The position numbers and the translations under genes were made by a program. Of a stretch of 64,000 nucleotides of DNA, positions 47,948 through 60,783 are shown in pieces. The stretch is from Sphingobacteriaceae bacterium (GTDB taxonomy: Bacteria > Bacteroidota > Bacteroidia > Sphingobacteriales > Sphingobacteriaceae), in NCBI GenBank assembly GCA_029266635.1, contig JAQSWM010000009.1, positions 62,001 to 126,000 of the forward strand. The letters run 5' to 3'. The stretch's first letter is position 1, and each line of letters begins with the position of its first letter. Under the pieces are notes generated by a model. It was not told the origin of the DNA. It saw nothing but the letters and a program-made list of their open reading frames with translations, and did no database searches.

Positions 47948-49628
47948 GGCCGGCTGATGGAGTTTGGCTTTCGATGAACTGGCCAAAGGCGATGTATTTT
48001 TTATAGCGGGTCTCGTAAATCCTGGCTCTGTTCGCATCGGGGTAATATTTTTTCTCGAACCCGCTGCCCATCGCTTTCATTGCATCTTCAACTTTTGGAT
48101 AAATGCCTGCCACAGTAGCTGCAAACATCGCCGCCCCCATCGCGGAAGCCTGATCACATTTTTGTATGCATATAGGCATATTCATCACATCCGCCATTAC
48201 CTGCATGATGTAAGGCGACTTTTTAGAAACCCCACCCGAGCCGATCAATCCTTTTATTTTAATTCCCTGCTCAACATACCTGTCAGCGATGCGTTTTGCG
48301 CCAAAGCAGGTTGCCTCAACCAGCGCCCTGAACAAACGCGGGGCATCTGTAGCGAGATTCAGGTTTATCAATCCTCCTTTCAACAACTGATTTCCATCAG
48401 GAGTGCGCCTGCCATTCAGCCAGTCAACAGCAAATTCAGCATTCTCTTCCAGGGGGAGAAATTTAGCTGCTTCGCTCAGCGCAGCTATAATCCTGCCTTT
48501 CATCTCGTCCTGAAGCGCAGTAGCAGTTTCAGTGTCTATGATTGACGATTGCTGCAATAATGTGTTAACAGGCCAGGAGATCAGATTTTGAAACCAAGCA
48601 TATACATCGCCGAAAGCAGATTGCCCCGCTTCAAACCCAATCATTCCTGGCACGATAGAACCCGGAACCTGTCCGCAAATGCCTTTCACGAGTGTGTCTT
48701 TGACCTCGCTAATTGGAGCAACAACCATATCGCAGGTAGAAGTGCCCATTACTTTGCTGAGATAATAAGGTTCAATCTGAGCGCCCACAGCTCCGAAATG
48801 AGCATCCAGAGCTCCAACTCCAATTAAAACATCGGTACTTAAACCAGTCTTGGCTGCCCACTCTGCAGACAAATGCCCGGCGGGCTGGTCGGCGGTGAAA
48901 GTTTCTGTATAAAGCCGGGAGGTAATGCCGCCAAGAAGCGGATCGAGGGAGGAGAAGAGCTCATCCGGCGGAAAGCCATTAAACTCTTCTGCCCATAAAC
49001 ACTTATGCCCGGCAGCGCAGATGCCTGTTTTTATTTTGCTGATGTCGTTTCCGCCAGTCAGCAGGAATGGTATCCAATCGCAATGTTCAACCCACGAAAC
49101 AGCTGCTTTGCGTACTGCTTCATCTTTACGCAAGACGTGCAATATCTTGGCCCAAAACCATTCGGATGAATAAATCCCACCGACAAATTCCAGGTAACTT
49201 ACATCCTGCGAAGCAGCGTGGTCGTTTATTTCCTGAGCTTCCTTTATCGCAGTGTGGTCTTTCCAGAGCACAAACATGGCGTTTGGGTTTTCCGCAAATT
49301 GAGGCAACATGGCCAGTGGCGTGCCGGATTGATCTACTGCCACGGGAGTTGAGCCCGTGGTATCAACCGAAATAGCTTTGATGTTTTTGGCAACCTCCGG
49401 ACCGGCTTTCTGGACGCAATCCCGCAAGGTATGCTCTAAGCCTTCCACATAATCAAGCGGGTGCTGACGGAACTGGTTTTGCGAAACATTGCAATAAAGC
49501 TGCTTCTTCCACCGGGGATAATAGAACACAGACGAACAGACCTCGCTTCCATTGATGGCATTTACAACAATGGAACGCACAGAGTCGGTGCCGAAATCGA
49601 CACCAATAACAAAAGCATCAGCAGGCAT
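47940..49628 (-). CDS. araB: ribulokinase
   Basis: This 562-residue FGGY-type kinase phosphorylates L-ribulose. The ATP-site loop VIGVDFGTDSVRSIVVNA at the N-terminus, the sugar-binding region AISVDTTGSTPVAVDQ and the C-terminal LIGSGGVSKKSPYIMQVMAD are all intact. It is the first gene of araBDA-araR. The likely promoter and operator zone is 49629-49700, with a TGTAAA/TTTACA palindrome at 49679-49691. Confidence 0.96.
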   Translation of the reverse strand: MPADAFVIGVDFGTDSVRSIVVNAINGSEVCSSVFYYPRWKKQLYCNVSQNQFRQHPLDYVEGLEHTLRDCVQKAGPEVAKNIKAISVDTTGSTPVAVDQSGTPLAMLPQFAENPNAMFVLWKDHTAIKEAQEINDHAASQDVSYLEFVGGIYSSEWFWAKILHVLRKDEAVRKAAVSWVEHCDWIPFLLTGGNDISKIKTGICAAGHKCLWAEEFNGFPPDELFSSLDPLLGGITSRLYTETFTADQPAGHLSAEWAAKTGLSTDVLIGVGALDAHFGAVGAQIEPYYLSKVMGTSTCDMVVAPISEVKDTLVKGICGQVPGSIVPGMIGFEAGQSAFGDVYAWFQNLISWPVNTLLQQSSIIDTETATALQDEMKGRIIAALSEAAKFLPLEENAEFAVDWLNGRRTPDGNQLLKGGLINLNLATDAPRLFRALVEATCFGAKRIADRYVEQGIKIKGLIGSGGVSKKSPYIMQVMADVMNMPICIQKCDQASAMGAAMFAATVAGIYPKVEDAMKAMGSGFEKKYYPDANRARIYETRYKKYIAFGQFIESQTPSAGHE

Positions 49629-49678
49629 AATAATTCAGGTATAATTGGTCTGCCCAAAATACAATATTTTCCAATAAG

Positions 49679-49691
49679 TGTAAATTTTACA
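49679..49691. promoter_or_regulatory. palindrome upstream of araB, AraR operator candidate
   Basis: TGTAAATTTTACA is a 13-base palindrome (TGTAAA, T, TTTACA) 51 bases before the araB start codon in an AT-rich leader. AraR, encoded at the end of the operon, is the natural candidate ligand, but AT-rich palindromes also arise by chance. Confidence 0.35.
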
Positions 49692-49827
49692 ATTATATAA
49701 AACCGTATATGTGAGGCTCGGTCAAAAGGTACTTTAGATACCTCAGCGAAAAGATCAATTATCATGAATCAACTCCAACAAATCTTGTGCTCATGGGTTT
49801 AGCTGATGTATCCTAACACCCTAAACC

Positions 49828-50244
49828 ATGGACAAGAGAGTTTTGATTATTGAAGATGATGACGATTTATCAGAGCTTCTCTTTGTAATTCTCGATGACT
49901 CAGGTTGCGAAACACTCCTCATTCACGAGAGTAATTACAAGCAGACTTTAATTGAGTACAAGCCCACGGTTATTTTGCTCGATTACTGGATGGATGAAAT
50001 TGATGGAGACATGATTTGCGCTGACCTCAAAAACGATGAGCGCACGAGGCACATCCCCATAATTCTAGTTTCGGCTGTTCCCGAGCTGGATCACAAGGCC
50101 CTTAAATGTGGTGCAGATGCCTGGATCTCTAAACCTTTTGACATAGCCTCGCTGGAAGTGACTGCCTTTGAATGGATAAAATATGCGAACCAGCAAACTG
50201 CTGAAGCGGAAGAGAATTTACAGGTTCTCCGGAAAGTAGCATAG
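49828..50244 (+). CDS. response regulator receiver protein next to stressosome genes
   Basis: This 138-residue CheY-like protein has the acidic cluster LIIEDDDDLSELL, the phosphoacceptor Asp in VILLDYWMDEIDGD, the switch Ser in IILVSAVPEL and Lys in WISKPFD. No output domain follows. It lies 142 bases ahead of rsbR on the same strand, and a histidine kinase closes the set at 53073-54275, so it is a plausible phosphoacceptor of that kinase. Separate promoter possible. Confidence 0.9.
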   Translation: MDKRVLIIEDDDDLSELLFVILDDSGCETLLIHESNYKQTLIEYKPTVILLDYWMDEIDGDMICADLKNDERTRHIPIILVSAVPELDHKALKCGADAWISKPFDIASLEVTAFEWIKYANQQTAEAEENLQVLRKVA

Positions 50245-50386
50245 TCGCTTTCAGCGGCTTTTAAGCTCAAACGTTATTCTTCCGAATGAATCAATATGCA
50301 TGCAGAGTTGATTTTCAAATCAAGAAAAGGATTGTTACCTTTCCACTTTAGTTATTAATATAGAATCAGTAACCTGTATTTATCAC

Positions 50387-51259
50387 ATGTCATCTAATAA
50401 TTACAAATTGCTACAAAAAAAGAAAAAAGAGGTCCTGGAACTCTGGATGAAAAACCAGCTTGCGGACGAAGGGCTCCGTGAAGACCTCATAAGCAATGAT
50501 GAGCTTCGCAGCCAGTCGGAAGAACTGATTGAGGCGCTAATTGGAAATCTCAGCTCGAACAGCGTTGAAGACATTAACTCAGATGAATGGAGCCCGGTGA
50601 TCGAGATTTTGGGCGGTATAGCCATCACGCGTGCGAGGCAAGGGTTTAGCCCCCGGGAAACGGGAAACTTTGTGTTCTCTTTGAAAGAAGCCTTAATTGA
50701 AGTATTACAAAAAGAACTGAAGAACGATATCCAGGCATTATTTTCAGAAACATTGAAGATAGGCCGGATTATGGATAATCTGAGCGTAGTCACTTTTGAA
50801 ACTTTTATTAAAGGCCGTGAAGAAGTCATTCTTCGCCAAACGGACGAGATCACTGATATTTCAACTCCTGTTATCCGTGTTTGGGACGGCATTCTTGCTT
50901 TGCCAATAATCGGAACCTTAGACAGTGCCCGCACACAGGTTGTGATGGAAAACCTGCTTCAGGAAATTGTAGAAACCGGATCAAGTATTGCTATTTTAGA
51001 TATATCGGGCGTGCCCGCAGTAGATTCGCTTGTTGCACAGCACCTGATCAAAACGGTTAGTGCAACAAGGCTGATGGGCGCTGAATGTATTATTAGTGGC
51101 ATCCGCCCGGAAATTGCTCAAACGGTTGTGCATTTAGGAATTGATCTTTCCAACATTATAACCAAATCGAGCTTAGCAAGCGCACTCGCTTACGCATTTA
51201 AGGTGATGAGGCTTGAGGTGAGAAAGGTAAATGCGGTACAAAAATCTAACTTACTGTAA
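50387..51259 (+). CDS. rsbR: RsbR-type stressosome co-antagonist (STAS)
   Basis: The 290-residue protein has an N-terminal helical, globin-like sensory domain (1-150) and a C-terminal STAS domain (about 165-280). By position, Ser180 (GTLDSARTQ) and Ser214 (VPAVDSLVAQ) match the two phosphorylated Thr of B. subtilis RsbRA, with the same 34-residue spacing, though both are Ser here. It should build the stressosome core with RsbS. Its stop overlaps the rsbS ATG by one base. Confidence 0.88.
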   Translation: MSSNNYKLLQKKKKEVLELWMKNQLADEGLREDLISNDELRSQSEELIEALIGNLSSNSVEDINSDEWSPVIEILGGIAITRARQGFSPRETGNFVFSLKEALIEVLQKELKNDIQALFSETLKIGRIMDNLSVVTFETFIKGREEVILRQTDEITDISTPVIRVWDGILALPIIGTLDSARTQVVMENLLQEIVETGSSIAILDISGVPAVDSLVAQHLIKTVSATRLMGAECIISGIRPEIAQTVVHLGIDLSNIITKSSLASALAYAFKVMRLEVRKVNAVQKSNLL

Positions 51260-51666
51260 TGGATAGAATTCCTATTCTCAGAATGGGGAACTTTTTATTG
51301 GTTACTATACAGGTAGACCTGTATGATCGTTTGGCGCTTACCCTGGAAGCAGACCTTGTCCAAATGGTAAAAAAAACCAATGCAAAAGGTGTCCTGATAG
51401 ATATCTCTGCGGTTTCAATTGTAGATTCCTTTATGGGCCGCATTATTGGCAATATTGCCAGTATGTCTAAAATACTTGATTCTGAAACTGTTGTGGTGGG
51501 CATGCAGCCCGCGGTTGCAATAACTCTCATAGAACTCGGCCTTCCTCTAAAAGGCGTTCATACTGCTCTAGATGTAGAAAAAGGCATGCTCTTGTTGAAG
51601 TCGATGATAGATGAAAATGTAGATGATGCTGATTTAGACGAGCAAGATGATGCTTTCGCTGAGTAA
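51259..51666 (+). CDS. rsbS: RsbS-type stressosome scaffold (STAS)
   Basis: This 135-residue protein is a single STAS domain with an acidic tail (DDADLDEQDDAF). The phosphorylation-site Ser57 in VSIVDSFMG lines up with Ser59 of B. subtilis RsbS. It should lock RsbT in the core until phosphorylated. Its 3' end overlaps rsbT by 20 bases. Confidence 0.88.
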   Translation: MDRIPILRMGNFLLVTIQVDLYDRLALTLEADLVQMVKKTNAKGVLIDISAVSIVDSFMGRIIGNIASMSKILDSETVVVGMQPAVAITLIELGLPLKGVHTALDVEKGMLLLKSMIDENVDDADLDEQDDAFAE

Positions 51667-52060
51667 AGAAACCATCAAAGTCTTAAAAGAGCAGGACGTT
51701 GTGCTTCTGCGGAACCGTGTTAAGGAAGTTGCCGTGAAGATTAAAATGGGGCTGGTGAATCAGACACGCCTCATCACAGCAGCCAGCGAACTCCTGCGAA
51801 ACATGCTTCGGTATGCCAACGGTGGCAACTGTATCGTAGAAATCGTATCGAGTGGCCGTAACAACGGCGTCCGTTTAACTTTCATCGATAAAGGACCGGG
51901 AATACCCGACATTGCTCTCGCGATGAAAGATGGCTATTCTACCGGAAAGAGCCTTGGCCTGGGGCTGCCCGGAACCAAGCGCCTGGTAAACGAATTCGAT
52001 ATTAAAAGCAAAGTTGGCGAGGGCACTACTGTTACCATAATAAAATGGGCAAATGGTTGA
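51647..52060 (+). CDS. rsbT: RsbT-type serine kinase / anti-sigma-like ATPase
   Basis: The 137-residue protein is a GHKL ATPase of the RsbT type. The N-box ASELLRNMLRYANGG, the ATP-lid start FIDKGPGIPD and GLGLGLPGTKRLV are intact. RsbT phosphorylates RsbR and RsbS on stress and then leaves the complex to activate a partner. Two ATGs (51647, 51650) are possible. It overlaps the next gene by eight bases. Confidence 0.9.
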   Translation: MMLSLSKETIKVLKEQDVVLLRNRVKEVAVKIKMGLVNQTRLITAASELLRNMLRYANGGNCIVEIVSSGRNNGVRLTFIDKGPGIPDIALAMKDGYSTGKSLGLGLPGTKRLVNEFDIKSKVGEGTTVTIIKWANG

Positions 52061-53063
52061 CGCAACCCACATAAGCTTTGCAGCAACTGACCGTAGCTAT
52101 TTCTCTTTATTAAAAAAAGAAATACACCGTCGGGCAGAAGAAGTTGGCATTAACAATACGCGGCTCAATGAAATAGACCTGATTGTAGCCGAAATGACAT
52201 CCAATCTTTTTAAGTATGGTCAAAGCGGGGAAATCTTGCTGGGCGTGTTTAGAAATAGCGGTTCGCCGTACATCGAAATCATCAGTATTGACCACGGGCC
52301 GGGCATGGCAAACCCAACCAGAATGATGCAGGATGGAGTTTCCACCACCAACACCATGGGGCACGGCTTGGGGAGCATCAAAAGGTTATCAGACGTATTC
52401 GATCTGTACAGCCTGGTGGGCTGGGGAACCATCGTGTTAAGCAGGGTTTACGATGATCCAAAAGCGGCAAAGGCTAACCAGAAAGTAACAGTAAGGCCGA
52501 TAGTAGTGGCCAAACCCGGCGAAACCCAAAGCGGCGATGGCCTGGTAATAAAGCACAGTGATAAGTATGTTAAAATTATGCTCGCCGACGGGCTTGGGCA
52601 CGGGCCCGAAGCTAATAAAGCCATCAACGAAGCAGCTGCAAGTTTTAAAGTTTTTCCTGAGTTCAGCCCCACGGAAACCTTGCGATTCATTCATGGAAAT
52701 ATTCGGAAAAGCAGGGGCGCTGTAGCAAATGTGATTTGTTTCGATTACGAGAAACGCTCATGGACCTCTACCGGGATCGGCAATATTGCTGTGCGGATGA
52801 TTGGACCGGCTACGTTTCGCAACCATATGTCATACAACGGGATTGTTGGCCACAACATTCCTACATCCATGAATGATCAGCAATATGCTGCGGAACAATA
52901 TAATCAGGTAATTTTGTGCTCGGATGGGATCAAGACACGCTGGGATCTGGTCAAATATCCGCTGATAAGCAAACACGACCTGACAGTGCTGAGCGCTGCG
53001 ATCTATAAAGACCATGCACGAAAGACAGACGATATGTCTGTAGTGGCTATAAAAATTAAATAG
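52053..53063 (+). CDS. ATPase-PP2C fusion phosphatase (RsbX/SpoIIE-like)
   Basis: This 336-residue protein fuses an N-terminal anti-sigma-type ATPase (1-135: LIVAEMTSNLFKYGQSG, ISIDHGPGMANP, TMGHGLGSIKRLSD) to a SpoIIE/PP2C phosphatase (140-336: IMLADGLGHGPEANKA, ILCSDGIKTRWDL, KTDDMSVVAIKI). The metal-binding Asp residues are kept. In stressosome modules, RsbX dephosphorylates RsbR and RsbS, and this fused form probably has that role plus a binding surface. It is followed by the kinase gene after nine bases. Confidence 0.88.
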   Translation: MVDATHISFAATDRSYFSLLKKEIHRRAEEVGINNTRLNEIDLIVAEMTSNLFKYGQSGEILLGVFRNSGSPYIEIISIDHGPGMANPTRMMQDGVSTTNTMGHGLGSIKRLSDVFDLYSLVGWGTIVLSRVYDDPKAAKANQKVTVRPIVVAKPGETQSGDGLVIKHSDKYVKIMLADGLGHGPEANKAINEAAASFKVFPEFSPTETLRFIHGNIRKSRGAVANVICFDYEKRSWTSTGIGNIAVRMIGPATFRNHMSYNGIVGHNIPTSMNDQQYAAEQYNQVILCSDGIKTRWDLVKYPLISKHDLTVLSAAIYKDHARKTDDMSVVAIKIK

Positions 53064-53072
53064 TCAGCATAT

Positions 53073-54275
53073 ATGATTGACATTGTTGCTATATCGCTTG
53101 AGAACGAAATGGACCTTGTTCTTGCGCATAAGCGATCTATGAAGGTTGCCGAGAAACTCGGGCTTACCATCGCTACACAAACAACGTTTGCAACTGCGGT
53201 ATCAGAAATAGCCCGTACCGTTATCGAGCATACCAACAACGGAAATTTAAAGCTTGGGCTGGAACCAAAAACACACGGCTACAACCTGACAGCTTATGTT
53301 TCGTTTGAAAGGGATGTTAGCTTTACCAATGCCGATGAAGGCTATTATTATGCCCAGAAATTGGTGCCGCAGTTTGATACCGGCGAAACAGATGGATTGA
53401 AATTTATCGAGATGAAGATTGGGCTGCCAAGGTCGCTGAATCTCGATTCAAATAAGATCACAGTAATCAAAGACAGCTTCCTGAATGAGCCTCCGATAAA
53501 TGCTTATGAAGAAATTAAAAAGCGCAACGTATCGCTAACTAAAAAAGCTGAAGAACATGAGGAAGAGATCAGGCGCTCCCGCATCATAGATGAACAAAAA
53601 ACAGAATTCATCTCAATTGCCAGCCATGAGATAAAAACACCAATCACTATCATCAAGGCTTACACGCAAATGGTAAAAAAGGTATCGGTTGACCATTGCA
53701 GTGCACACGTAAAAGGTATTCTCGAAAAAGTAGATGAGCAGTCTTCAAAGCTGGTGACATTAGTACAACAGTTATTAGATGTTTCGAAAATGGAAAACGG
53801 GAGCCTGCTTTACTCCCTGGAAGTTATTGAGCTGAATTCTTTTATCACCGAGATGGTTAACATGATGGGCAACATTCTCCCTCATAATGCCTTAACTCTT
53901 AATCTGGGCCAGAATGCATTTGTAAATGCTGACAGGCTGCGCTTGGAGCAAGTATTTTCAAACCTGCTCGGAAATGCTGCAAAGTATTCGAAACCCGAAA
54001 CTGTGGTCAGCGTAGAATCAGCCATTACAGACGGCTTCGTTCAAATTTCTATTGCAGACCAGGGAATGGGAATGTCGTCAAATAGTATTAAATCTATTTT
54101 CAACAAATTTTACCGCGATCACGGTGTGCTTAAAACACATTCTGGCTTGGGAATGGGCCTTTATATCAGTTCTAAAATAATTGCAGAACACGGCGGAAAG
54201 ATATGGGTTGACAGTGCAGAGGGTGTGGGCTCAAAGTTCCACTTCACTATTCCTGTTTACAAGCTGGCAGATTAA
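53073..54275 (+). CDS. hybrid: degenerate RsbT-like domain + histidine kinase
   Basis: The 400-residue protein has an N-terminal RsbT-like GHKL part (1-130) in which the N-box reads AVSEIARTVIEHTNNG, so Thr49 replaces the Mg-binding Asn. A short helix (145-172) leads to HisKA with His185 (SIASHEIKTPIT) and a complete HATPase_c domain (FSNLLGNAAKYSKPETVV, ISIADQGMGM, SGLGMGLYIS). No membrane helix: a soluble kinase. It ends the rsb operon and may sense RsbT release. Confidence 0.88.
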   Translation: MIDIVAISLENEMDLVLAHKRSMKVAEKLGLTIATQTTFATAVSEIARTVIEHTNNGNLKLGLEPKTHGYNLTAYVSFERDVSFTNADEGYYYAQKLVPQFDTGETDGLKFIEMKIGLPRSLNLDSNKITVIKDSFLNEPPINAYEEIKKRNVSLTKKAEEHEEEIRRSRIIDEQKTEFISIASHEIKTPITIIKAYTQMVKKVSVDHCSAHVKGILEKVDEQSSKLVTLVQQLLDVSKMENGSLLYSLEVIELNSFITEMVNMMGNILPHNALTLNLGQNAFVNADRLRLEQVFSNLLGNAAKYSKPETVVSVESAITDGFVQISIADQGMGMSSNSIKSIFNKFYRDHGVLKTHSGLGMGLYISSKIIAEHGGKIWVDSAEGVGSKFHFTIPVYKLAD

Positions 54276-56315: not shown

Positions 56316-56729
56316 TTATAAATTCGCTGCAACAAACTCCCGGCTGTACTGCTTAATCATATTACGCACATCTCTGAATTGTTGTTTAACCTGATCTTCT
56401 GTACCTGTTGCTTTTGCAGGGTCGGGAAAGTTGTAGTGGAACTTCCTGGCAGTTGATGGAAAGTTGGGGCAGCGTTCTTTCGCATTGTCGCAAACAGTAA
56501 TCACATAATCAAAATGTTTATCTGCGTATTCATTCACGTTGTTTGAAGTATGCCCTGAAATGTCTATGCCATCTTCCTGCATTATCTCAATGGCTTTTGG
56601 GTTTACGCCATGTGTCTCAACTCCTGCGCTGTAAACCTCCGCCTTGCTGCCTGCAAAATGCCTGAGATATCCTTCTGCTATCTGGCTTCTGCAACTGTTG
56701 CCTGTACATAAAACTAATATCTGCTTCAT
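56316..56729 (-). CDS. arsC: arsenate reductase, thioredoxin-coupled (low-MW phosphatase fold)
   Basis: This 137-residue enzyme reduces arsenate to arsenite. The P-loop CTGNSCRS starts at Cys8, and the redox pair Cys80 and Cys87 (VCDNAKERCPNFP) follows, the same spacing as S. aureus pI258 ArsC (Cys10, Cys82, Cys89). It lies 12 bases after arsM in the operon arsR-arsM-arsC. No efflux pump gene (arsB/acr3) is in the cluster. Confidence 0.95.
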   Translation of the reverse strand: MKQILVLCTGNSCRSQIAEGYLRHFAGSKAEVYSAGVETHGVNPKAIEIMQEDGIDISGHTSNNVNEYADKHFDYVITVCDNAKERCPNFPSTARKFHYNFPDPAKATGTEDQVKQQFRDVRNMIKQYSREFVAANL

Positions 56730-56741
56730 TGTAGTTTTTAG

Positions 56742-57587
56742 TTAACAACAGTCCGGTCCGCAGCAGGCTTTCTTCTCTTCCGTTGGTTTCTCTGCGTAAA
56801 CTGTAATGCTTGTTATTCCTGTTCCTGATTCTTTGAAAGCTGCAAGTTGTTCTGCGGATAGGTAGGTACTTAAAATATCATCAGGGATAATAATTGCTTT
56901 GTCTTTTTGAACCGTGATGTTTGTAAACCCATTCGCTTCAATCAATTCTAAATACACTTGCTTTTGAATAGCGCCTGCAACACATCCTGCATACATTTCA
57001 GCAGCCTCTTTGATTTGCTTCGGCAGTTCTCCTTCTAAAACAATATCTGATATAGAGAAGTGGCCACCCGGCTTGAGCACTCTGTAAATTTCTTTGATAA
57101 CTCCGTCTTTATTCGGCACAAGGTTCAATACACAATTGCTTACAATTACATCGGCAGTGTTCGCCGTAACGGGCATTTTTTCTATATCACCTTGTCTGAA
57201 TTCTACATTGTTAAATCCCCTTACTTCATTGTTCTGCCTGGCTCTCTCAATCATGGCGGGCGTAAAATCTATCCCTATTACTTTGCCGGTTTCTCCAGTT
57301 TCATTACGTGCGATGAAGGCATCATTACCTGCACCGCTACCCAGGTCAATAACTACATCACCTTTCTTGATCTTTGCAAATTGGGTAGGCAAGCCACAGC
57401 CTAAGCCTAAGTCGGCATCAGGGTTGTAACCATCAAGCTGGGTGTAATCATCAGCCATGATGTTGTAAACCTCTGTTGAACAACCACCTGAACCGCAGCA
57501 GGAACTCTGGTTGGTTTCTTTGTCTTGTAAAGCGATTTCAGAATACTTCTGCCTTACCAGTTCTTTTACTTCCTCTTGTGTTTGCAT
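56742..57587 (-). CDS. arsM: arsenite S-adenosylmethionine methyltransferase
   Basis: The 281-residue enzyme methylates arsenite with S-adenosylmethionine. The SAM loop DLGSGAGNDAFIA is at 81-93. The three catalytic Cys are Cys64 (GLGCGLP), Cys152 (SNCVLNL) and Cys202 (AGCVAGA). Extra Cys pairs at the N-terminus (SSCCGSGGC) and C-terminus (ACCGPDCC) may hold arsenic. An ArsR-type palindrome (57608-57623) lies 20 bases before its start. Confidence 0.95.
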   Translation of the reverse strand: MQTQEEVKELVRQKYSEIALQDKETNQSSCCGSGGCSTEVYNIMADDYTQLDGYNPDADLGLGCGLPTQFAKIKKGDVVIDLGSGAGNDAFIARNETGETGKVIGIDFTPAMIERARQNNEVRGFNNVEFRQGDIEKMPVTANTADVIVSNCVLNLVPNKDGVIKEIYRVLKPGGHFSISDIVLEGELPKQIKEAAEMYAGCVAGAIQKQVYLELIEANGFTNITVQKDKAIIIPDDILSTYLSAEQLAAFKESGTGITSITVYAEKPTEEKKACCGPDCC

Positions 57588-57607
57588 GATATTTAATTTG
57601 AATTTTA

Positions 57608-57623
57608 TCGAAATATTACGATG
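57608..57623. promoter_or_regulatory. ArsR-type operator, arsM copy
   Basis: ATCGAAATATTACGAT matches the arsR copy (57978-57993) at 15 of 16 bases and has palindromic ATCG/CGAT ends. It lies 20 bases upstream of arsM, between arsR and arsM, so arsM may have its own controlled promoter. Confidence 0.65.
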
Positions 57624-57641
57624 ACTATTTTCAAAAAAAGG

Positions 57642-57971
57642 TCAGCAACAATTGCTGCCATCTTTGTAGCTGTCAAATAGTTGAATAAGCGAAACCTGTG
57701 CAGCCTTCCATTCTTTTGCATCTATACAATAGCACACTTTAGCCCCTTCAATCTCACCCTGTATAAGCCCTGCTTCTTTCAGTTCTTTCAAATGTTGTGA
57801 AACGGTGCTTTGTGAAAGGGGCAATTCTTCAACTATATCTCCGCACTGGCAAGTTGCTTTGTTTGCCAAAATCTCCAGTATGGCAATTCTTGCCGGATGT
57901 GCCAGGGCTTTAGCATACCTGGCTAACCTGTTTTCCTTTGTGCTGAACTCGTGTGACTTAGTTGCCCCCAT
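57642..57971 (-). CDS. arsR: ArsR/SmtB family repressor
   Basis: The 109-residue winged-helix repressor has the metalloid-site CQCGD (Cys41, Cys43) in the first recognition region, then the [23 protein letters not shown]. It ends in NCC, which could add a ligand. It is the first gene of arsR-arsM-arsC and should leave DNA on binding arsenite. Two near-identical palindromes in the operon are its probable targets. Confidence 0.94.
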
Positions 57972-58184: not shown

Positions 58185-58739
58185 CTACAGAAACTGAACC
58201 CTTATTTGCACCCGTTCAGCATCGGGATCACTCATTGGCTTGATATTTATGCGTTCGGACTCGCCGAAATACTTCGCTATACCTTTAATGATGCCTACAG
58301 CAAGAGCGCTCATCCGTCTTTGTGAGTAGTAATCAATTATGAGCAGCTTTTCGTTTACTTTACTAACATATAACACCGGTGGGTTAGCGGCGCTGTTCAA
58401 CTTCCTTACTGCTCCGTGCATCACGTTTTCAGTATGCATGAGAACTTCAAAAGTTTTCCATTCCGGTCGGAGATAGCTTGCGTACAGCTTAAAAAGATCG
58501 GGTACCAGGTATTCTCCAAATCTTTCCTGGATATTATAATGGGATATACCGGTCAACTGAGAAGCTGCCGCCACAATGGAGCCAATTTCCTGAAGGGAAT
58601 AATTGTACGTGAGCTCGTACTCGCCCACAGCGCCCGATAGTTTGATCAGGTTATCCCAAGTGCCGGCTGCGAATTCGGCATTGACATACTTTTTCAGCAA
58701 AAAGAATATAGAGCCGTGAACCTTTGGTGATTCGTCCAT
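58185..58739 (-). CDS. heme-NO-binding (H-NOX) sensor protein
   Basis: This 184-residue protein has the H-NOX fold. The proximal heme ligand is probably His108 (NVMHGAVRKLNSAANPP), and the heme-propionate motif Y-x-S-x-R is at 137-141 (YYSQR) followed by ALAVGIIKGIAKYF, the family tail. It should bind NO through heme. The divergent PAS histidine kinase at 59134 is its likely signalling partner. Confidence 0.88.
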   Translation of the reverse strand: MDESPKVHGSIFFLLKKYVNAEFAAGTWDNLIKLSGAVGEYELTYNYSLQEIGSIVAAASQLTGISHYNIQERFGEYLVPDLFKLYASYLRPEWKTFEVLMHTENVMHGAVRKLNSAANPPVLYVSKVNEKLLIIDYYSQRRMSALAVGIIKGIAKYFGESERINIKPMSDPDAERVQIRVQFL

Positions 58740-59133: not shown

Positions 59134-60783
59134 ATGATTTCTGATATCGGCCAAACCACGAAACCTCTTCCGTTTATCAAAGAGTCTTCAGAGATGGGCC
59201 AAATCATCAAATCGTATGATTGGGAATCAACATCGCTCGGGCCGCCCGAATACTGGTCGGAATCTTTGCTTACTTCTTTAGGAATTGTTCTAAACTCGGC
59301 CTTCCCCATGTTCCTGTTCTGGGGCGAGGATCTGATCTCTTTTTACAACGATGCTTTCCGTCCCAGCCTGGGCGCCTCGGGCAAACACCCTGCAATAGGA
59401 AAGCCGGCGAAAGAGGTATGGCCGGAGATTTGGGAGTTTATAGGCCCATTGATTGAAGGTGTGATGACTACCGGAAAACCGGTTTGGTTTGAAGATCAAC
59501 TAGTACCTTTTTACAGGAACGGGAAAGTAGAAGAAATTTACTGGACATTTAGTTACAGTCCGGCATACAACGGCAAAGGCGAAGTGCAGGGCGTGGTGGT
59601 TACCTGTACCGAAACTACGGCGAGCGTAGTTAACCTGGCACGGCTTACTGAATCGGAAAAGCGTTTCCAAAACCTGGTGAAGAATGCATCGGTGGGAATT
59701 ATTGTGCTTTCGGGCGAAGACCATGTCGTCCAGATTGTAAATCAGGCTTATGCTACGCTGATAGATAAGAATTACCACGAGCTACTTGGAAAGCGAGTAT
59801 TCGACGTAATTCCAGAAACGGAAGCGGATTTCAAGCAACTGATAGAACAGGTGCGCACTACCGGAACGGCGGCTTACCTGACTGAGCATCCCTACTTTGT
59901 ATATGTAAATGGCGAAAAACGTGAGGGCTTTCTTAATCTCGTTTACCAGCCTTATACGGAAGAGGATGGGTCCGTTACCGGGGTAATGGCGCTTTGTCAG
60001 GACGTTACGCCACAGGTTACAGCCAGAAAAAAACTAGAGCATAGCGAACAGCAGCTGTTGCACGCCCAGAAGGAACTAAAAATGGAGCTGGAGGCAGGAA
60101 GGCAATTGCAGCAGCAAAAAGACGACTTTATCGGGATTGCCAGTCACGAGCTTAAAACCCCGCTCACCACCCTCAAAGGCTCTATGCAATTGTTGTCGCA
60201 GTGGATGGCGAATGAAGATGTAAGCCCGAAAGTTCAGAGGCTGATACAGCTTTCCAATAGCAACATTAACAAACTGAGCCATATCCTGAAAGAACTTTTA
60301 AATGATACCAGGATCAACGAGGGGCAGCTTCATCTGAATAAATCTTTATGCAGCATTGCAGAGCTTTTCAACGACTGTTGCGAAAGCTTTAATATCATCT
60401 CGCACCATCAGATATATCAAAAGGGCGACCTGAACCTTTCCGTGTTTGTAGACCGCGACAGGATTATCCAGGTTATCATCAACCTGATAAATAACGCTAT
60501 TAAATATGCTCCGAACTCGCAGGAGATTATTTTATCGGCGAGCGAAGAAGGAAATCAGGTGAAAATATCTGTCCGCGACTTTGGCCCCGGCATCCCCGCT
60601 GAAAAGATCCCGCACCTGTTTAAACGTTACTACCGCGTTGACACCTCGGGAATACAATATTCCGGCCTTGGCTTGGGACTGTTTATTGCATCTGATATGG
60701 TTAGCAGGCACGGAGGCAAGATTGGGGTTGAGAGCGAGGCCGGTGCAGGTGCCACCTTTTGGTTCACCATCCCACTTGCCTGA
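59134..60783 (+). CDS. PAS-domain sensor histidine kinase
   Basis: The 549-residue kinase is soluble, without membrane helices. The first PAS-like region (about 50-165: FPMFLFWGEDLISFYNDAFR) and the second PAS (about 175-295: FQNLVKNASVGIIVLSGEDH) precede a helical linker, HisKA with His338 (GIASHELKTPLTT) and HATPase_c (VIINLINNAIKYAPNSQE, VRDFGPGIP, YSGLGLGLFIA). No receiver gene adjoins. The divergent H-NOX gene is the best input candidate. Confidence 0.93.
   Translation: MISDIGQTTKPLPFIKESSEMGQIIKSYDWESTSLGPPEYWSESLLTSLGIVLNSAFPMFLFWGEDLISFYNDAFRPSLGASGKHPAIGKPAKEVWPEIWEFIGPLIEGVMTTGKPVWFEDQLVPFYRNGKVEEIYWTFSYSPAYNGKGEVQGVVVTCTETTASVVNLARLTESEKRFQNLVKNASVGIIVLSGEDHVVQIVNQAYATLIDKNYHELLGKRVFDVIPETEADFKQLIEQVRTTGTAAYLTEHPYFVYVNGEKREGFLNLVYQPYTEEDGSVTGVMALCQDVTPQVTARKKLEHSEQQLLHAQKELKMELEAGRQLQQQKDDFIGIASHELKTPLTTLKGSMQLLSQWMANEDVSPKVQRLIQLSNSNINKLSHILKELLNDTRINEGQLHLNKSLCSIAELFNDCCESFNIISHHQIYQKGDLNLSVFVDRDRIIQVIINLINNAIKYAPNSQEIILSASEEGNQVKISVRDFGPGIPAEKIPHLFKRYYRVDTSGIQYSGLGLGLFIASDMVSRHGGKIGVESEAGAGATFWFTIPLA

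Follow-up and report, generated by a model that had tools for sequence, protein, structure and literature searches.

How does a stressosome pass its signal on where no sigma factor of the sigma-B type stands beside it? This question is raised by an operon at positions 49828-54275 of a 64,000-nucleotide stretch of DNA (the window) from a Sphingobacteriaceae bacterium (GenBank assembly GCA_029266635.1, contig JAQSWM010000009.1, positions 62,001 to 126,000 of the forward strand). An earlier note on this DNA had placed genes for RsbR, RsbS, RsbT and a phosphatase between a lone receiver and a histidine kinase, and had supposed that released RsbT feeds a phosphorelay to the receiver. The present analysis draws attention to the kinase itself, the N-terminal domain of which is a relative of RsbT with ATP-binding boxes that, judged from the sequence, have been lost. 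In the favoured reading, to which a probability of about one half is assigned, the operon encodes a sigma-B-free stressosome whose output is this kinase, docking on the RsbR/RsbS core via its pseudo-RsbT domain and gating the lone receiver. The six genes and their coordinates were confirmed:

49828-50244, + strand: stand-alone receiver (REC), 138 amino acids (aa), Pfam Response_reg 7.9e-15, phospho-acceptor Asp52
50387-51259, + strand: RsbR, Pfam RsbRD_N sensor domain 7.9e-28 and STAS 4.1e-15, likely phospho-sites Ser214 and Thr246
51259-51666, + strand: RsbS, a single STAS domain (Pfam 5e-7), likely phospho-site Ser57
51647-52060, + strand: RsbT switch kinase of the GHKL type, Pfam HATPase_c 1.1e-13, N, G1 and G2 boxes intact
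52053-53063, + strand: X, an N-terminal RsbW/SpoIIAB-type ATPase domain (about residues 1-145) followed by a C-terminal RsbX-type PP2C phosphatase
53073-54275, + strand: histidine kinase (HK) with pseudo-RsbT domain (residues 1 to about 120), helical linker, HisKA domain (His185) and HATPase_c domain
53073-53432, + strand: the pseudo-RsbT domain of HK, of RsbW/SpoIIAB fold, in which the G1 box is missing through deletion and Thr takes the place of the N-box Asn

HK is matched by Pfam HisKA (3.1e-13) and HATPase_c (3.5e-26), and both His185 and the N, G1 and G2 boxes of its catalytic domain are present, as is Asp52 of the receiver. No Pfam model matches its first about 170 residues at E <= 1. 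A profile of this N-domain, however, matches the RsbT of the window at 3e-11, and by kinship in sequence and fold the domain belongs to the RsbT family. For comparison, 80 named loci were used, which are the best RsbS matches listed in one named-species scan with an RsbS alignment and thus not a random sample; 79 of them are labelled Bacteroidota and one (L081) Actinomycetota. Together with the window and a second operon of the same genome, 78 of these loci provide 80 copies of the kinase. All 80 copies carry the N-box Glu and Arg, and the RsbT-type Arg preceding the N-box Asn position is found in every one of them as against none of 81 X sequences.

The ATP-binding boxes of the three related domains have fared very differently. 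Among the RsbT rows, which include the C-terminal piece of a frameshifted second copy, the N-box Asn, the G1 Asp and both G2 glycines are present in 83 of 83, and the N-box Asn and G1 Asp of X in 80 of 81, the remaining row being a gap. Of the 80 kinase copies, 58, among them that of the window, have a deletion of the G1 box, and 8 of these 58 retain the N-box Asn. N and G1 boxes are kept in the other 22 (the first G2 glycine is replaced in 3), which come from Hymenobacteraceae, Cesiribacter and relatives, Ferruginibacter and one Chitinophagales metagenome-assembled genome (MAG); in two deeper relatives (L145, L149) every box is present. When all 82 kinase domains were placed in a tree, the 58 decayed ones formed one side of a single branch (support 100/100). 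In a second tree of 68 rows covering the three domain types, with 21 of the 82 kinase domains included, these 21 group together (99/87), and the 12 decayed rows among them are nested inside; since the RsbT group is weakly supported (66/0), no exact branching order is claimed.

The fold of the N-domain was predicted by AlphaFold2 with a pLDDT of 93.8 (structure prediction A3, 60 rows). Its closest structural match is RsbW (6m37_C; Z 14.5, rmsd 2.1 for 109 aligned residues; Foldseek, VIA-align), followed by UsfX (13.5), SpoIIAB (about 13), the RsbW domain of Rv1364c (12.3), SiaB (11.3) and the Leptospira response regulator LvrC (9.9), while the histidine kinases listed reach at most 7.8. A profile search of the PDB with a 9-row alignment of the N-domain gave no match at E <= 10, so that the fold search alone is informative. 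Conservation is unevenly spread over the 58 decayed domains. Expressed as the mean majority fraction, it falls from 0.78 for helix 1 to 0.72 for helix 2, 0.61 for helix 3 and 0.36 for helix 4, amounts to 0.42, 0.40, 0.39, 0.26 and 0.34 for strands 1 to 5, and is 0.63 at the start of the linker. Asp14, Glu45 and Arg48 are invariant (58/58) and Ser44 is present in 54 of 58, the pair Ser44-Glu45 being by motif the counterpart of Ser48-Glu49 in RsbW. In the RsbV-RsbW crystal structure, as described in PMC7340262, helices 1-3 of RsbW contact the STAS partner; the contacts named are Arg23, Asp42, Lys44/Ser48, Glu49 and Tyr118, and Glu49 touches the phosphorylatable serine of the partner.

Because the pseudo-RsbT domain keeps the helices that bind STAS partners in RsbW, docking of HK on the core can be proposed with at least as good reason as the release of RsbT. 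RsbR as the sensor would form the STAS core together with RsbS, and RsbT, by homology, would phosphorylate RsbS at Ser57 and RsbR at Ser214 and Thr246, with X taking these phosphates off again. The N-domain of HK may sit on the same core as a non-catalytic look-alike of RsbT, to be loosened, as would be RsbT itself, by phosphorylation of the core. The change is envisaged to be passed along the helical linker as far as HisKA, where autophosphorylation of His185 and transfer to Asp52 of the lone receiver would be switched in one direction or the other, and through the receiver a putative target. The full-length model of HK does contain a single helix, predicted with modest confidence, which leads from the N-domain into HisKA (residues 144-204), in keeping with the kind of linker-coupled control that has been demonstrated for RsbU and suggested for kinases (PMC12143880).

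In the scheme of the earlier note it is RsbT freed from the core that acts: it would bind HK, or X, and activate it as RsbT activates RsbU, the N-domain perhaps forming a heterodimer with RsbT by helix 1 and strand 1. RsbT has intact ATP boxes in all rows examined, RsbT of B. subtilis acts on the N-terminus and linker of its partner (PMC12143880), and RsbW dimerises by helix 1 and strand 1 (PMC7340262), helix 1 being also the best-conserved element of the HK domain. Strand 1, however, is poorly conserved, and the domain is a relative of RsbT rather than of the known receptor of RsbT: RsbU_N, the classical target, is absent from the Pfam matches of HK and X at E <= 1 and is unmatched in the whole genome at the same cut-off, although the latter search is weak, its control passing the cut-off in 1 of 14 genomes. 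Activation of HK by free RsbT is hence regarded as possible but clearly less probable than docking.

A further alternative reduces the degenerate domain to a dimerisation or folding element, HK being regulated by RsbT-dependent Ser/Thr phosphorylation or acting in parallel to the stressosome. For downstream kinases that miss RsbU_N, phosphorylation by RsbT has indeed been proposed (PMC9237108). Yet helix 2, which contacts the STAS partner in RsbW, is highly conserved too, with the Ser44-Glu45 pair almost invariant, and the linkage of the kinase to the operon is strong. Moreover, the N-box Glu is kept where Asn and the G boxes are lost, a pattern which is unexpected for a domain that merely dimerises or decays freely. 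We consider this explanation unlikely.

The core on which HK is proposed to dock has the make-up of a stressosome module, with a sensor-STAS RsbR, a single-STAS RsbS and the switch kinase RsbT encoded next to each other. The phospho-sites are almost invariant (RsbS Ser57 in 82/82 rows, Ser or Thr at RsbR position 214 in 82/82, RsbR Thr246 in 81/82), and are presumably equivalent to the phospho-sites of the B. subtilis proteins. RsbR and RsbS are predicted to assemble into a large STAS core. In X the N-terminus matches Pfam HATPase_c_2 (1.8e-8), while the C-terminus reaches SpoIIE at 7.1e-4, below the cut-off of the family. The phosphatase part matches the PDB entries 3zt9 (5e-17, residues 147-332), which we take to be the Moorella RsbX, and 3w40, RsbX (4.8e-7, residues 147-254), and its acidic motifs are kept across 80 rows; it is accordingly assigned, by these matches, as a predicted RsbX-type phosphatase. 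The genes from RsbR to HK overlap by 1 (R/S), 20 (S/T) and 8 bases (T/X) or are separated by 9 bases (X-HK), so that the tight operon described by the earlier note is borne out for these five. REC lies on the same strand at a distance of 142 bases from RsbR and is therefore not tightly packed with them. A scan for sigma-70 promoters found 17 sites where 9.6 were expected, and no use was made of them; a Bacteroidota-type pattern, TTG/TAnnTTTG, was not found on the + strand at 49601-51400.

The wiring that the earlier note had thought worth study does include a kinase with an RsbT-like domain, but it is not special to the window. In 78 of the 80 named loci, RsbR, RsbS, RsbT, X and HK occur in this order (R-S-T-X-HK) as collinear genes of a single strand, and the two exceptions stop at contig ends, one after RsbT (L129) and one inside the start of the same kinase (L098). 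Among the 78, one kinase (L116) and one RsbR (L130) are cut by contig ends and one X is short (L088, 251 aa). Such recurrence is not compatible with a chance arrangement. In Sediminibacterium roseum (L070:8130-11519) a tandem double R-S-T precedes a single X and kinase. The locus labelled Williamsia sp. (L081) has an operon like that of Chitinophagales and a receiver which groups with theirs, and is probably a mislabelled MAG.

Across 395 genomes of the phylum RsbS was detected in 14 (E <= 1e-6). The HK N-domain was found in 8 of these 14 and, at E <= 1e-4, in none of the genomes outside them; three weaker matches within the 14 (G038, G061, G200) are RsbT itself. Reading the neighbourhood showed that a ninth genome (G188) has an RsbT-domain kinase of the intact-box kind. 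In the remaining five (G035, G038, G061, G082, G200) X is short and lacks the ATPase domain, and no RsbT-domain kinase was found in the stretches of 9-16 kb. The ATPase domain of X and the RsbT-domain kinase thus co-occur in 9/9 versus 0/5 genomes and seem to come and go jointly in this sample, which is small and contains related, non-independent genomes. In the loci L150-L154, from deeper Bacteroidota relatives, R-S-T is likewise accompanied by an X of one domain, and the stretch fetched contains no RsbT-domain kinase. A class search with a 9-row profile in 395 genomes matched nine, four of which were new (G649, G668, G686 and G723, the last apparently being the genome of L124), and in all four R-S-T-X adjoins the kinase.

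The fusion also occurs outside Bacteroidota. Of 106 records with a match, 4 were inspected. R-S-T-X followed by the RsbT-domain kinase is found on plasmids in three of them, from D. radiodurans (MP1), Deinococcus sp. KNUC1210 and Sphingomonas aliaeris. The fourth, from Paraburkholderia aromaticivorans, has S, X and the kinase as well as an annotated short RsbT-like gene, R being undetected among the predicted open reading frames (ORFs). The wider statement can be ventured, with slightly less confidence than even odds would give, that HK is a stressosome client tethered by an RsbT-mimicking pseudokinase, that Ser/Thr switching thereby gates a His-Asp relay with neither RsbU nor a sigma factor, and that the pseudokinase goes back to a single origin, in a fusion of RsbT and kinase with its boxes intact, a form which exists beyond the phylum as well.

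The other end of the proposed relay is the lone receiver (taken as less than 175 aa among the flanking ORFs of the 80 loci). REC of the window has no output domain found by the Pfam scan. Directly downstream of the operon, the next gene encodes a lone receiver in 40 of 78 loci (22 on the same strand, 18 on the opposite one); directly upstream this is so in 6 of 79 (5 on the same strand). At 45 of 80 loci a lone receiver is a direct neighbour, which supports the association noticed before; its upstream position in the window is the less common arrangement. Farther away the receivers are absent or rare, with 0/75, 0/73 and 0/66 in downstream places 2-4 and 2/77, 3/75 and 0/70 in the upstream ones. 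The downstream receivers on the opposite strand are not independent, 17 of the 18 being from Hymenobacteraceae. On clustering of the flanking ORFs, receivers and kinases fall into one big cluster, every other cluster covering at most 11 loci. A single orthologous family of receivers was considered and rejected, as there are several distant subfamilies, and the association has therefore probably been made repeatedly. REC loosely groups with Mucilaginibacter receivers whose genes directly follow this type of operon (support 98/93 with six rows, 97/55 with three); it has a long branch, which was flagged by the program, so that the grouping may be false, and its highest identity to any locus receiver is 31%.

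Several observations weigh against the docking of HK and the gating of the receiver. At 35 of the 80 loci a lone receiver is missing as direct neighbour, a stricter same-strand distance rule leaves a receiver at 33 of 80 (25 downstream, 8 upstream), and the receiver of the window is itself set off by the 142-base gap. The pseudokinase form is not universal, considering the 22 copies with N and G1 boxes kept. The Arg of RsbT helix 1 is replaced by His or Tyr in 75 of the 80 kinase copies, and conservation of helix 1, being the dimer interface of RsbW, could serve dimerisation. Finally, the full-length model has a pTM of 0.51 and HisKA helices with pLDDT 67-77, which leaves the domain arrangement of HK unsure.

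Could the output after all be a sigma factor? As the earlier note had it, none adjoins the module: Sigma70_r2 has no match within the window, and of the 17 matches genome-wide the single one on this contig (C17:37420) lies before the start of the window (62001). A sigma-B pathway, with linked RsbU (carrying RsbU_N), RsbV, RsbW and SigB, was not found in the window. The companion claim that anti-sigma and anti-anti-sigma proteins are likewise missing holds for STAS proteins, none of which was matched in the window besides RsbR and RsbS, but not for the ATPase: with the RsbW/SpoIIAB-type domain of X an anti-sigma-like domain is present where a sigma factor is not. Across the loci, too, sigma genes are not conserved beside the operon. 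Using a small home-made profile on four flanking ORFs at each side, genes for extracytoplasmic function (ECF) sigma factors were found near 5 of the 80 loci, and a linked sigma factor was rejected as output.

The same genome has a second R-S-T-X-HK operon (G000:C12, L008:5982-9830). The rsbT frame of this copy is broken in the assembly, apparently by a shift of one base, which is either an assembly error or a real loss, and no lone receiver was found in the 19-kb stretch around it. An ECF-like sigma gene stands convergent beside its kinase (L008:5413-5985, with a Sigma70_r2 match there at C12:55526). This neighbour is what can be said for an ECF sigma factor as the output; given the scarcity of such genes at the loci and their absence from the window, the idea is highly improbable.

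Another candidate is unlinked. At L010:5968-8004 (G000:C13) genes for a receiver-PP2C protein, a STAS protein and an RsbW-like protein stand in a row, resembling an RsbY/V/W-like partner-switching set (two of the proteins by Pfam), and the true output might be this set, by analogy to the RsbK-RsbY route of B. cereus. The receiver-PP2C protein occurs in 84 of the 395 phylum genomes (E <= 1e-20), but it is not strictly co-conserved, being present in 2 of the 8 genomes with the RsbT-domain kinase (3 of 9 including G188) and in 5 of the 14 with RsbS. The cluster was rejected as a co-conserved output and is a very improbable alternative to HK.

Elsewhere in the window, a stand-alone haem-NO-binding (HNOB) protein (58185-58739, - strand) is encoded divergently from a PAS histidine kinase (59134-60783, + strand), and the two are possibly a pair that senses nitric oxide (NO). 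The genes at 56316-57971 (- strand) for an ArsR-type regulator and for arsenite methyltransferase-like and arsenate reductase-like proteins presumably form an arsenic cluster.

The general kind of module described here is already known, as sigma-B-free RSTX modules with two-component outputs are in print. RsbRST modules do exist outside sigma-B bacteria, as had been stated: rsbRSTX without sigB is widely conserved, Bacteroidetes included, and the downstream modules include HisKA/REC phosphorelays, the majority of the downstream proteins considered being devoid of RsbU_N (PMC9237108). Vibrio stressosome loci have been described (PMC10014275 and PMC4976288), and histidine kinases with RsbU_N occur in stressosome operons (PMC12143880). 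A kinase with an RsbT-type domain was not recognised in the literature searched, in which subscription papers and reviews have limited coverage. This suggests that the new element is the RsbT-type N-terminus of the histidine kinase, in a form of operon for which no study was found in the searchable literature. An RsbT relative fused to a kinase suggests a physical link between stressosome and kinase, which can be tested with few purified proteins. The passage from kept boxes (Deinococcus, Hymenobacteraceae) to a lost G1 box (the Sphingobacteriaceae examined, most Chitinophagaceae, Spirosomataceae) moreover provides a natural mutation series separating docking from catalysis.

Compared with rsbRSTUVW-sigB-rsbX of B. 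subtilis, the operon shares RsbR, RsbS, RsbT and an RsbX-type phosphatase, whereas linked RsbU, RsbV, RsbW and SigB are missing and the phosphatase follows RsbT directly. X has the PP2C/SpoIIE domain and acidic motifs of RsbX and differs from it by the added N-terminal ATPase domain. Vibrio vulnificus (PMC9237108; PMC10014275) likewise has RsbR, RsbS, RsbT and an RsbX-type phosphatase followed by a two-component pair, VvD1/VvD2, and no sigma-B. There, RsbR is a haem-globin protein and X has a single domain, in contrast to the RsbRD_N RsbR and the two-domain X described here. Moreover, VvD1/VvD2 showed no RsbU_N, what is available of these reports does not mention an RsbT-type domain for them, and no positive interaction of RsbT with VvD1 was obtained (PMC9237108), whereas the kinase here carries a pseudo-RsbT. 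The RsbU_N-histidine kinases that some Proteobacteria encode beside rsbT (PMC12143880, citing Heinz 2022) are also stressosome outputs via a kinase with helical linker; they carry the receptor of RsbT, while the kinase here carries a relative of RsbT itself. Another counterpart is the operon DR_RS15570-15595 on plasmid MP1 of D. radiodurans, in which the gene after R-S-T-X likewise encodes a kinase with an RsbT-type domain at its N-terminus; there, however, the boxes of this domain are kept, the kinase is a hybrid that includes a receiver of its own, and a second receiver-kinase follows.

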